A stretch of DNA of 64,000 bases, taken from NCBI GenBank assembly GCA_025656455.1, contig JAHXHS010000001.1, forward strand, positions 174,484 through 238,483, read 5' to 3'. The position numbers were made by a program, and so were the translations under genes. This DNA is from Candidatus Thiodiazotropha sp. (ex Epidulcina cf. delphinae). GTDB taxonomy: Bacteria; Pseudomonadota; Gammaproteobacteria; Chromatiales; Chromatiaceae. How positions within the stretch are numbered: position 1 is the stretch's first letter; each line of letters starts with the position of its first letter. Shown here one piece after another: positions 2,806 through 54,274 of the stretch. A model generated the notes under the pieces. That model was not told the DNA's origin and did not search any database. It worked only from the letters and a program-made list of their open reading frames with translations.

Positions 2806-2813
2806 TGTCCTAG

Positions 2814-3145
2814 TACTCCGTCAACCTAATAACTTAGGATGCAGCCAGTCAGGAAGCGGCTAGCTGCTAGGCGTGCGAGCGCAGGACTAGCCGTCGCTAA
2901 TTCAAGGGAGCGCAACAACGCAGATGGCCGCTTCCTGGCTGGCCCAAAGGGTGCGCCCCACATCATCCAATGCGGCGTTGCAGTCCTTGAAAAGGGCATG
3001 CCATTCCATCCTTCGGTCCGTAAACGGCACATCCATGTGCCACTTCTCCCTGCGCACTGCGCCCCGGAGGAAGTGCCCTTGGGGTGCGCCTTGCCTTGGA
3101 TGATGTGGGGCACACTGCATCCTAAGTTATTAGGTTGACGGAGTA
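2814..3145. mobile_element. MITE-like palindromic element 1, flanked by CTAG
   Basis: This 332-bp element has perfect 31-bp inverted ends (2814-2844 and 3115-3145) and a CTAG tetranucleotide directly outside each end (2810-2813, 3146-3149). Inside is a second stem (2952-2970 with 3096-3113) and a core at 3001-3050 shared, in opposite orientation, with the element at 9319-9622. The core contains the hairpin GGCACATCCATGTGCC (3026-3041). It has no transposase; short ORFs across it are by-products of the palindrome. The CTAG flanks look like a 4-bp target duplication of the YTAR type used by IS5-group transposases (inference). Confidence 0.8.
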
Positions 3146-3272
3146 CTAGCCCACCGAATCCTTGCTTTCAAGGCCGGATGGGTATTGGCCGCATCAGGCA
3201 GTCAAACAGCATTGACAAGTTTCTCTTCCTTAAGCGAAAAGAGATCTTAAAAGCATTCAATCAACACAGACT

Positions 3273-9241: not shown

Positions 9242-9709
9242 GGGCCGCGGAAAAAAAGATTTAACCCAAACTACTTGTCTTCTTGCCCGCCTTCTTTGTT
9301 GTAGCTTCGGTTACCTAGTGTACCTCGTCATAGATACTGTAACATTCAGAGCCACCCAAATGCGCCAGAACAAGGCGCGGCTCGCCGGGAGAAGTGGCAC
9401 ATGGATGTGCCGTTTACGGACCGAAGGATGGAATGGCGCGCCCTTGCCAAGAGCCGAAACGCAGGGCTGGCGCATTTGGGTGGCTCCCTTCGGGCGAGCC
9501 AGGAAGGGGTCATCCACGGCGTTATGCCTCTTGGCAAGGGCTGGGCCATTCCCGGCGAGGCATGCCTTGTGGCTAACCCCTTCCTGGCTCGCTGAATGTT
9601 ACAGTATCTATGACGAGGTACACTAGGCCCGGCTACGCGCCCTTCGCTACGCCTCAAAGGCAGGCAACAATCCGGCGCATTTTGGGTTAAATCTTTTTTT
9701 CCGAGGCCC
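9242..9709. mobile_element. Family-A palindromic element (160 bp) interrupted by a second element
   Basis: The ends GGGCCGCGGAAAAAAAGATT (9242) and their near-perfect reverse complement (to 9709) are flanked by TAA on both sides (9239-9241, 9710-9712). Without the inner insert and one CTAG the element is exactly 160 bp, the same length as the intact relative at 48511-48670, and the two align throughout, including CTTCGGTT and TCCGGCGCATTTTGGG. It lies between archease and rtcB, 6 bp after the archease stop codon. No ORF of its own. The 3-bp TNA-type flanks suggest mobilisation by an IS5-family transposase (inference). Confidence 0.85.
9319..9622. mobile_element. MITE-like palindromic element 2, nested, flanked by CTAG
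   Basis: This 304-bp element has perfect 31-bp inverted ends (9319-9349, 9592-9622) and CTAG directly outside each end (9315-9318, 9623-9626). An inner stem pairs 9349-9368 with 9467-9486. The core at 9387-9437 matches the core of element 1 in the opposite orientation and contains the hairpin GGCACATGGATGTGCC (9396-9411). Removing the element plus one CTAG restores the 160-bp host element exactly, so this is a genuine insertion with a 4-bp target duplication. Confidence 0.88.
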
Positions 9710-15673: not shown

Positions 15674-16053
15674 CGAACCAAATCCTCTCTCTCCGCCAAA
15701 TAAAAAGGGGGCATGCGGGACTCCCCAGCTTGGAAGCCGACCGAGGGGAGGGATTGATTCGCCTGCGGCTCACCCCTGCGGGGCGCCTACGCTGCGCTGC
15801 GGCGTCCTGCGTCGCTACGCTCCTTGTCGAACGAAGGGTTCGAACCAAATCCTCTCTCTCCGCCAAATAAAAAGGGGGCATGAGGGACTCCCAGCTTGGA
15901 AGCCGACCGAGGGGAGGGATTGATTCGCCTGCGGCTCACCCCTGCGGGGCGCCTACGCTGCGCTGCGGCGTCCTGCGTCGCTACGCTCCTTGTCGAACGA
16001 AGGGTTCGAACCAAATCCTCTCTCTCCGCCAAACAAAAAGGGGGCTCATTCGA
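15674..16053. repeat. Tandem 166/167-bp repeats carrying inverted tRNA-Ser 3'-end mimics
   Basis: Two near-identical units (15674-15840 and 15841-16006) and a third partial one (16007-16053). Each unit holds, on the plus strand, a degenerate copy of the tRNA-Ser T-arm, acceptor and CCA end (...AATCCTCTCTCTCCGCCA), followed by terminator-like AAATAAAAAGGGGGC, then ~120 bp of GC-rich sequence. The real tRNA-Ser lies just beyond on the minus strand, so the mimics are inverted relative to it. ORFs across the array are artefacts. Confidence 0.85.
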
Positions 16054-16070
16054 GCCCCCTTTTTGTTTGG
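16029..16070 (-). terminator. Rho-independent terminator of tRNA-Ser
   Basis: A perfect 19-bp stem: CCAAACAAAAAGGGGGCTC, loop ATTC, and its reverse complement. Read on the minus strand it follows the tRNA-Ser CCA end and gives a GC-rich hairpin with T-runs. Its left arm is also part of the tandem repeat array. Confidence 0.75.
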
Positions 16071-16158
16071 CGGAGAGAGAGGGATTCGAACCCTCGATAC
16101 GCTATTAACGTATACACACTTTCCAGGCGTGCTCCTTCAGCCACTCGGACATCTCTCC
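16068..16158 (-). tRNA. tRNA-Ser(GGA)
   Basis: 91 nt, class II tRNA with encoded CCA (TGG at 16068-16070). Acceptor GGAGAGA pairs with TCTCTCC; the D-arm begins GTCCGAGTGGCTGAAGG; anticodon loop CTGGAAA gives GGA (16122-16124); a long variable arm (TATACGTTAATAGCGTATC) is typical for serine tRNAs; T-arm GAGGG TTCGAAT CCCTC. Confidence 0.95.
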
Positions 16159-21080: not shown

Positions 21081-21934
21081 TGGCCACTCCCAGGGAGATC
21101 GATAACGCGATCTTCACTGCCGTTCATGCCCATGATCACCAAAGAGACACGACGATTTTTCGCCCTGCCGGCTTCGCTGTCATTGTCAGCCACCGGCCGG
21201 TGTTCCGCGTAACCGACCGCGGAAAGACGATCCGGGTCGATACCCATGCGGGTCATCAAGTGCACGACACTGGCGGCGCGGGCGGCTGAAAGCTCCCAGT
21301 TTGAAGGAAACTCCTTGGTATTGATGGGGCGGTTGTCTGTATTGCCTTCCACCTGGACCTGGTTGGGCACTATCGCCAACACCTGACTGATATTCCTCAG
21401 CGCCTCCACTGCCGCCTTTGCGAGATGGGCGCTGGCGCTGGCGAACAGCATTTTATCTTTCATGTTCACCACCACCCGGTCCTCAGTGAAACTGACCTCG
21501 ACCAGGTCCTGATCGACATACTCACTGAGCATATCTTCAATACTGGCGGCAAGAAATCCAAGTCGCTGTACCTCATCCACGGGCATTTCCGGGACCGCAT
21601 CCGCTGCTCCAGCCAGATCGATACCTTGTTGATCGAAACTGCCGGGACCTTGTCGCAGTTCGTTGTCAATCAAGGCGCTCTGCTGGCCCATCCCGGGCGC
21701 CTCGCCCGAGTCGCGGCTGAGCTCCCCGATCTGGATCGGGTCAAGGCTGCGCCGACTCTCCTGAAAGGCGTTGGTAAGGGTCTGCGACAGCACCCGGTAT
21801 TTGCCCTCATTGACCGAGGAGACGGAATACATGACCACGAAAAAGGCAAACAGCAGGGTGATGAAATCGGCATAGGAGACGATCCATCGTTCATGGTTGA
21901 CATACTCCTCTTTACGTTTGCGCCGTTTTCCCAT
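21077..21934 (-). CDS. motD: Flagellar motor stator protein MotD (MotB-like)
   Basis: 285 residues: a basic N-terminus, one membrane helix with the proton-path Asp (VSYADFITLLFAFFVVMYSVSS, ~19-40), a linker, and an OmpA/MotB peptidoglycan-binding domain (VEGNTDNRPI, NWELSAARAASVVHLMTRMG, LSAVGYAEHRPV). It pairs with MotC to form a stator. A palindromic element ends 3 bp upstream of the ATG, so the GGTGAG that could act as its ribosome-binding site belongs to the element terminus. Confidence 0.93.
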   Translation of the reverse strand: MGKRRKRKEEYVNHERWIVSYADFITLLFAFFVVMYSVSSVNEGKYRVLSQTLTNAFQESRRSLDPIQIGELSRDSGEAPGMGQQSALIDNELRQGPGSFDQQGIDLAGAADAVPEMPVDEVQRLGFLAASIEDMLSEYVDQDLVEVSFTEDRVVVNMKDKMLFASASAHLAKAAVEALRNISQVLAIVPNQVQVEGNTDNRPINTKEFPSNWELSAARAASVVHLMTRMGIDPDRLSAVGYAEHRPVADNDSEAGRAKNRRVSLVIMGMNGSEDRVIDLPGSGQ

Positions 21935-21940
21935 GGTTAA

Positions 21941-22224
21941 CCCGCATTTCTCACCAGGATTCCATCCTTAGGTCCGTAATCGGTACATCCCTGTACCACT
22001 CCTTGGATTTTTGGGGCAACCAGGCCGAAGCAGGTTGGACGATCGGGCGCAGAAGCATAGCCGGGCCTATGGTTCAAGCCCGATCGTTCAAGATGCCCGG
22101 CCTGGTTGTTCCAAAAATCAAATAGGACAGACTGTCCGATGAATGCCATATCGTGAGAGATGCTAACCTGTTCAAGTTTCATAAGTTTTCCTGTTAGTAC
22201 GGTCCGCCTGGTGAGAAATGCGGG
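21941..22224. mobile_element. MITE-like palindromic element 3 between motC and motD, flanked by TTAA
   Basis: 284 bp with perfect 18-bp inverted ends (CCCGCATTTCTCACCAGG at 21941-21958 and its complement at 22207-22224), each bordered by TTAA (21937-21940, 22225-22228). The core at 21957-22006 is a diverged copy of the core of elements 1 and 2, with the hairpin GGTACATCCCTGTACC (21982-21997). An inner stem pairs about 22006-22027 with 22099-22119. It lies between the motC stop and the motD start in an operon. Confidence 0.85.
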
Positions 22225-22232
22225 TTAAACAC

Positions 22233-54003: not shown

Positions 54004-54080
54004 GTCATCCCGGCGAATGCCGGGATCCAGAATCACCAACAGGTGCCATTTCCCTGGATTCCGGCATTCGCCGGAATGAC
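54004..54080. repeat. Palindromic REP-like repeat
   Basis: GTCATCCCGGCGAATGCCGG... (54004-54030) pairs with its near-complement at 54054-54080; each arm also contains its own short stem CCGGCGAATGCCGG-like. The type is widespread in proteobacterial intergenic regions. Otherwise the 53876-54274 stretch shows no gene. Confidence 0.8.
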
Positions 54081-54274
54081 GCGGTTACTGGAATGACGAG
54101 TAAGATCCAGGCATATTCACTTTAAGTAAGCGTTATTCCGACACGATCCCGGTAGTGCGGGTAGTACGGATTGTATGCATAAATTGAAACAGCGGATTGA
54201 AGAATCGAGGTTGATGCCAATAGTCACTCCGACGGTCACAAGGAATGCTTTTCTCACACGATGCAAAGGAAAGG

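Follow-up and report, generated by a model that had tools for sequence, protein, structure and literature searches.

The kinds of sequence closest to the element described here are the REPs and REPINs and the small dispersed repeats of cyanobacteria; with these, very small mobile repeats are already known as a kind. Elhai et al. reportedly described the cyanobacterial repeats in 2008 as very small, with sites at which they are present or absent, and often located inside other repeats. Because exact ends and empty sites are rarely available, it is not yet settled how repeats as small as the REPs spread. According to PMC8266576, TnpA-REP cuts between C and T next to a hairpin whose foot carries GTAG, and in one REP that was studied a perfect stem of 5 bp lies two bases from the GTAG. 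PMC6006769 gives the consensus of the GTAG super-family of REPs as a GT[AG]G tetranucleotide at the hairpin foot, and PMC3116915 describes the REPIN doublet as excising and states that singlet excision was not found.

We analysed a window of 64,000 nt from Candidatus Thiodiazotropha sp. (ex Epidulcina cf. delphinae), in which the initial annotation had seen one family of three palindromic elements with a common core of about 50 nt and swappable arms. The three elements exist, with inverted repeats and further inner stems located for each, and their arms extend a few bases further out than had been stated. The core that they have in common is a unit of 42 nt, CCATCCTTNGGTCCGTAAACGGYRCATCCNTGYRCCACTNCT, inserted in differing host repeats; the surplus bases of the longer core are host sequence. 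A degenerate 42-nt pattern has three matches in the window with 0 mismatches each, and it has 0 in 100 shuffles. Copy 1 (3006-3047, plus strand; hairpin stem and loop 3026-3041) is preceded by ATT and followed by C, copy 2 (9390-9431, minus strand; hairpin 9396-9411) is preceded by ATT on the minus strand, and copy 3 (21962-22003, plus strand; hairpin 21982-21997) is preceded by ATT and has the stem GGTACA/TGTACC. The hairpin letters are as first read: GGCACATCCATGTGCC in two copies, one of them on the minus strand, and GGTACATCCCTGTACC in one.

Copy 1 lies in a MITE-like host at 2810-3149 that ends in CTAG and has terminal arms of 35 nt as well as two inner stems (inverted repeats 2810-2844/3115-3149, 35 nt at 100%; 2844-2867/2920-2943; 2951-2973/3093-3115). 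This host has the terminal inverted repeats and the many short copies of a MITE, and its end motif has 141 matches in the same genome at up to 2 mismatches. The host of copy 2, at 9314-9627, is palindromic with a similar layout and other terminal arms (9314-9349/9592-9627, 36 nt at 100%; 9349-9368/9467-9486; 9494-9517/9569-9592), and that of copy 3, at 21934-22231, is a palindromic element of a different kind (21934-21958/22207-22231, 25 nt at 96%; 22003-22027/22098-22122). Such hosts are also found without the core, so the core is an insert and the palindromes are its hosts: CTAG-ended MITEs in the case of elements 1 and 2, and another MITE-like palindrome in the case of element 3. The supposed swappable arms of a single family are therefore different host repeats. 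As for the unit, its ends (CCATCC and ACTNCT) are not inverted repeats and its empty sites are without target duplication, which sets it apart from a MITE.

Some further features of these repeats were seen. A 27-nt module, CCGGAGGAAGTGCCCTTGGGGTGCGCC, occupies 3064-3090 in element 1 and is missing from most copies of that host (340 versus 313 bp). The terminal arms of the hosts of copies 1 and 2 differ in sequence and are alike in length and layout, with CTAG ends and CAG at the inner end; among such CTAG hosts in this genome, one-armed copies measure 166-168 bp and two-armed copies 271 bp. The arm-loop segments of element 2 at 9440-9462 and 9519-9541 are 87% mutually complementary, as if pairing across the arms were possible. 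An inverted repeat (9238-9270/9681-9713, 33 nt, 94%) surrounds element 2, which thus seems to sit within another palindromic repeat. At 15684-16082 in the window, CCTCTCTCTCCGCCAAA.AAAAAGGGGGC repeats occur in both orientations between and beside two tRNA genes.

Judged by PMC8266576, PMC6006769 and PMC3116915, the unit is like REPs and REPINs in being a short, dispersed, gene-less hairpin that forms arrays and has C and T at one border, and like the short group 3 REPs in having GTAA followed by 2 nt, a short perfect stem and a 4-nt loop. It shares with REPs the property of being a short palindromic hairpin in many dispersed copies, 75 in its own genome. It differs from them in that GTAA takes the place of the GT[AG]G foot, in its long fixed left half, and in its location, since REPs have copies flanking tnpA-REP whereas none of 76 Y1 loci (about 3 kb each, from unit-bearing and unit-free genomes) has a unit at up to 7 substitutions in 38 nt. 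Because of the different tetranucleotide and the Y1 loci devoid of units, we speak of likeness to REPs and not of membership. The REPIN doublet excises, according to PMC3116915, whereas here it is a single-hairpin unit that has exact empty sites. One host class of the unit (CGTCATTCCGG...CCGGAATCCAG) resembles the CGTC-tagged REPs (PMC3733652); these are here hosts of the unit and not the unit. As in IS200/IS605 elements, the unit is inserted 3' of a short fixed motif without target duplication, with a subterminal hairpin and a fixed polarity; the ends of those elements have two hairpins, whereas the 42-nt unit has one and carries no transposase gene. The cyanobacterial small dispersed repeats are reportedly set apart by another sequence and other taxa. 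Among open-licence papers, exact pieces of the unit occurred in none and no title named it; what is new, as far as these searches reach, is a single hairpin that has exact ends and empty sites, forms arrays and nests in itself.

The genome that contains the window (5.0 Mb, 74 contigs) has 75 matches to the first 29 nt of the unit at up to 3 mismatches, against 0 for a reversed-pattern control, and 77 copies are obtained with a slightly wider pattern. With the wider pattern at least one match was found in 18 of 142 genomes, this one included, and the reversed control gave 0 in every genome. The distribution is patchy, for within the genus the unit is present in 9 of 22 genomes (own included), at 1 to 77 copies, and 13 are without it. 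In a collection of named genomes there were at least 67 unit-bearing stretches; the carriers among the matches listed include Sedimenticola hydrogenitrophicus SN1189 and SB48, S. selenatireducens DSM 17993 and Candidatus Thiodiazotropha, together with symbionts of Ctena orbiculata, a Chromatiales bin and an Arenicella bin. Unit loci of congeneric genomes match loci of the named genomes in two cases (L165 with L138, L172 with L134). On the viral contigs and PLSDB plasmids searched, carriage by phages or plasmids was rejected: there were 0 units in the viral contigs and no PLSDB plasmid matched at E<=1.

Within its own genome, 53 of the 59 counted copies of the unit fall in two flank groups, which points to few insertion events there; most copies in this genome arose through amplification of hosts that already carried the unit. 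The right half of the unit has 74 matches in this genome (up to 2 mismatches), all beside a left half, the left half being decayed in three extra cases. Where left halves that lack a good right half were read, they proved to be decayed, deleted or truncated, and truncated copies were seen too. We looked in this genome for an autonomous element of greater length, divided between the two halves of the unit, and found none. A subtype of the unit has GCATCCTCGGCTCC, or near variants of it, in the left half (L080, L113, L125, L130, L161 and L178); in L113, L125 and L130 it is this subtype that is nested in the loop of another unit.

The borders of the unit were defined from 165 copies with 50 nt on either side, which form 37 flank groups, 7 of them with copies from the own genome; the grouping is rough both ways, with L005 and L025 sharing a host type in separate groups and the second largest group mixing several own-genome host types. 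Group-weighted information in the left flank is 0.05 bit at -4 and 0.93, 1.06 and 1.33 bits at -3 to -1 (A 26.4, T 30.4 and T 32.2 of 37 groups). In the right flank it is 0.75 bit at +1 (C 27.1 of 37), 0.07 at +2 and 0.22 at +3, and within the unit it is high at all 42 positions save 9, 30 and 40 (0.26-0.29). Conservation beyond the unit is limited to the ATT on its left and, mostly, a C on its right, giving a preference for ATT^C, where the caret marks the place of the unit. Neither the ATT nor the C was part of any search pattern: the fetching patterns spanned unit positions 1-29, and the collecting pattern spanned all 42 with up to 5 substitutions, dropping copies with strongly divergent right ends. 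When the pattern went no further than position 39, 28 of 29 groups had C at position 41 and T at position 42. ATT is the majority left triplet in 20 of the 37 groups and accounts for 2.3% of background triplets further upstream; TTT is the majority in 7 groups, ATG in 3, and ATA, AGT, TCT, TGT, GCA, AAT and ACT in 1 each. The last base of the unit and the base that precedes the unit are both mostly T, so the cut may sit one base to the left on both sides; with the caret now marking the border, ACTNC^T and ACTNCT^ are both possible readings on the right, since the T there can be assigned to either side.

Two ideas about target choice were set aside. Although many hosts are palindromic, the insertion sites (one per group, 37) fold no better than nearby DNA (p=0.96), and a preference for folded targets was therefore dropped. 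Nor do we claim that the GTAA acts as a guide by pairing with the ATT target, because GTTA variants keep a left ATT or TTT (L062, L072, L180 and L184).

Empty sites were sought by removing the unit and joining its flanks, and an alignment was accepted if it had no gap near the join, covered 25 nt or more on either side of it and reached an identity of 85% or higher. Such sites were found for 70 of the 165 units, in 8 of the 37 groups, a figure that is a floor since only the collected loci were searched. When the cut was moved by -40 or -25 there were 0 matches, and there were 6 at +25 and 3 at +40; moving it by 3 and 10 gave 69, 70, 20 and 43, distances too small to act as controls at the chosen threshold. 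The empty sites lack exactly 42 nt and no target bases are duplicated. Identity reaches 100% over 90 nt when the joined flanks of L036 are compared with L018, L047 and L142, those of L094 with L119 and those of L008 with L234; in a few other joins (L127, L130) the base on the unit's left side does not agree with the empty site. One host MITE measures 270-271 bp without the unit (6 copies, L229-L234) and 313 bp with it (5 copies: L008, L022, L023, L029 and L035), the two forms differing by the unit at GGCCATT^GCCTGC. The window itself contains two empty sites. The first, at 54016-54105 on the plus strand (junction 54060/54061), is in a REP-like host and matches the joined flanks of L041, a filled locus, at 97.8% over 90 nt; the second, at 22078-22164 on the minus strand (junction 22119/22120), is in the other arm of the host of copy 3 and is 95.4% identical over 87 nt to the flanks of L062, where the corresponding place is filled. 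In an orthologous intergenic region of another genus, with flanks that are about 75-84% alike, L276 and L277 have the unit, L283 has a nested pair, L278 and L279 have a remnant, while L280 is empty and reads ATT^CGTG; L281 and L282 dropped out of the alignment. The single register of the unit in 37 flank groups, together with duplication-free empty copies of several hosts, makes it likely that the unit is a mobile element.

Units also occur head to tail with a period of exactly 42, four in L089, three in L136 and further arrays in L121 and L125, and one unit lies inside the hairpin loop of another in L108, L113, L125, L130 and L283. They are found at both ends of REP-like palindromes, at CTGGATT^CCGG or CTGGATG^CCGG and at CGTCATT^CCGG. 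Both arms of the copy 3 host also carry them, and L268 shows a head-to-head fusion of two left halves there. Hybrid units and units with partial deletions are present as well. In transposase remnants, units lie at the corresponding codon (L166/L093, L181/L073, L167 and L176), and L166, L167 and L181 have an in-frame stop. The corresponding codon in four remnants may reflect a hot target or shared descent; the remnants L166, L167, L181 and L176 come from three genomes (G020 twice, G004 and G100). Three remnant pieces weakly resemble the C-terminus of ISCR/IS91-like proteins (E 0.004-0.02, far below the cut-off).

Each unit has one stable predicted hairpin, with a weak second pairing in some variants only. 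A compensatory change in the stem had been noticed among the three copies in the window, and this holds good for 85 distinct units: 96.5% of cells in the six-pair stem are paired versus 89.7 in shuffles, 63 cells versus 22.1 have changes on both sides, and the covariation score is 0.316 versus 0.183, values that 0 of 500 shuffles reach in each case, the shuffles being of a kind that does not preserve the relatedness of the units. The number of pairs with a double change (3) and that of further pair types (7) are not exceptional, being reached by 26 and by all 500 of the 500 shuffles. When the partner is slid by 1 to 3 columns, pairing falls to 17-53%. Pair 3 is U-A in 56 units and C-G in 22, and pair 4 is A-U in 40 and G-C in 40; by group majority, the perfect stems in the 37 groups include GGTGCA/TGCACC in 12, GGCACA/TGTGCC in 9 and GGTACA/TGTACC in 9. 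The 6-bp stem is perfect in 133 of the 165 copies and the loop is TCCN in 159. Positions 15-18 read GTAA (G 36.0, T 34.5, A 34.9 and A 36.0 of 37 groups) and are separated from the stem by two bases. As had been proposed, the stem changes in sequence and keeps its pairing across many copies and genomes, so the fold is, on this sequence comparison, likely to be under selection. Further covarying copies are thus at hand, and the cores did not turn out to be coding fragments; no gene is encoded within the 42 nt of the unit. The compensatory changes would be most simply read as the result of selection for mobility.

In our judgement the balance tips slightly towards the unit being a non-autonomous mobile element of very small size, which a Y1 (HUH) transposase acting in trans is predicted to insert 3' of ATT as folded single-stranded DNA. 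The substrate would be a single folded DNA strand, cut beside the hairpin by an enzyme of the TnpA-REP/IS200 kind encoded elsewhere, and pairing would be kept since only units that fold would be moved. The absence of target duplication, the short fixed motif on one side, the subterminal hairpin, the fixed polarity, the arrays and the self-nesting are, by analogy, Y1-like marks. As mobile DNA, a hairpin of 42 nt would rank among the smallest elements described. Of the 18 genomes with the unit 16 have Y1 genes, as do 88 of the 124 without it (p=0.15), and for the RAYT clade of L152 the figures are 9 of the 18 and 50 of the 124 (p=0.45), so that across the 142 genomes the presence of Y1 or RAYT genes does not significantly explain the distribution of the unit. 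At least one Y1 gene was found in 8 of 8 unit-bearing genomes of a subset; two unit-bearing genomes have no Y1 match (G032 and G097), each with one weak unit copy. Given that Y1 genes have no significant link to the unit, we only infer the enzyme, and no excised circle and no new insertion was seen.

The unit could be mobile by another route, either as a reverse-transcribed RNA copied at the target or through a recombinase or a rolling-circle Rep acting on the hairpin. Borders and empty sites define a product and not an enzyme, and Y1 genes have no significant link to the unit; we nevertheless think such a route unlikely, as no trace of an RNA intermediate was seen and as an insertion that duplicates nothing, beside a fixed flanking motif and with a subterminal hairpin, has the marks known for single-stranded DNA transposition by Y1 enzymes (PMC6006769). 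It is less probable still, though not negligible, that the unit does not move by itself and was spread by host MITEs combined with recombination, gene conversion or template switching between palindromes. This would suit the concentration of own-genome copies in a small number of amplified hosts, where one stem type prevails in each and differs between them, and the hybrid and partly deleted units, but groups without flank similarity have identical unit borders, the exact 42-nt presence or absence recurs in several hosts, and it is seen also in intergenic DNA between conserved flanks and in transposase remnants. A conserved structured RNA or protein-binding site with a cellular function, which strong covariation and a nearly fixed left half might suggest, is very improbable for a sequence that ranges from 0 to 77 copies in one genus and is missing from 13 of its 22 genomes, that commonly has precise empty sites, that sits in broken transposase remnants, three of them with an in-frame stop, and that has no match in Rfam, where the cores gave none, the window gave only two tRNAs, elsewhere, and 8 unit-bearing loci gave none at E<=0.1.

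Returning to the mobile element moved in trans by a Y1 enzyme, a fuller version of that reading can be put forward tentatively. The unit may be a solo-hairpin transposon in which both ends of a site-specific, single-stranded mobile DNA element are combined in one 42-nt hairpin. It would insert at ATT^C, within its own loop and head to tail, and would spread among sulfur-oxidising Gammaproteobacteria as a parasite of a nuclease acting in trans and of other mobile repeats. The unit offers exact ends and empty sites in many settings, the size of one oligonucleotide, and hosts with cultured strains (Sedimenticola), and it makes single-strand cutting, strand choice and target choice directly testable. 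It would also be a case in which covariation in a hairpin results from selection for mobility and does not point to a regulatory RNA, a caution for structure-based RNA searches.
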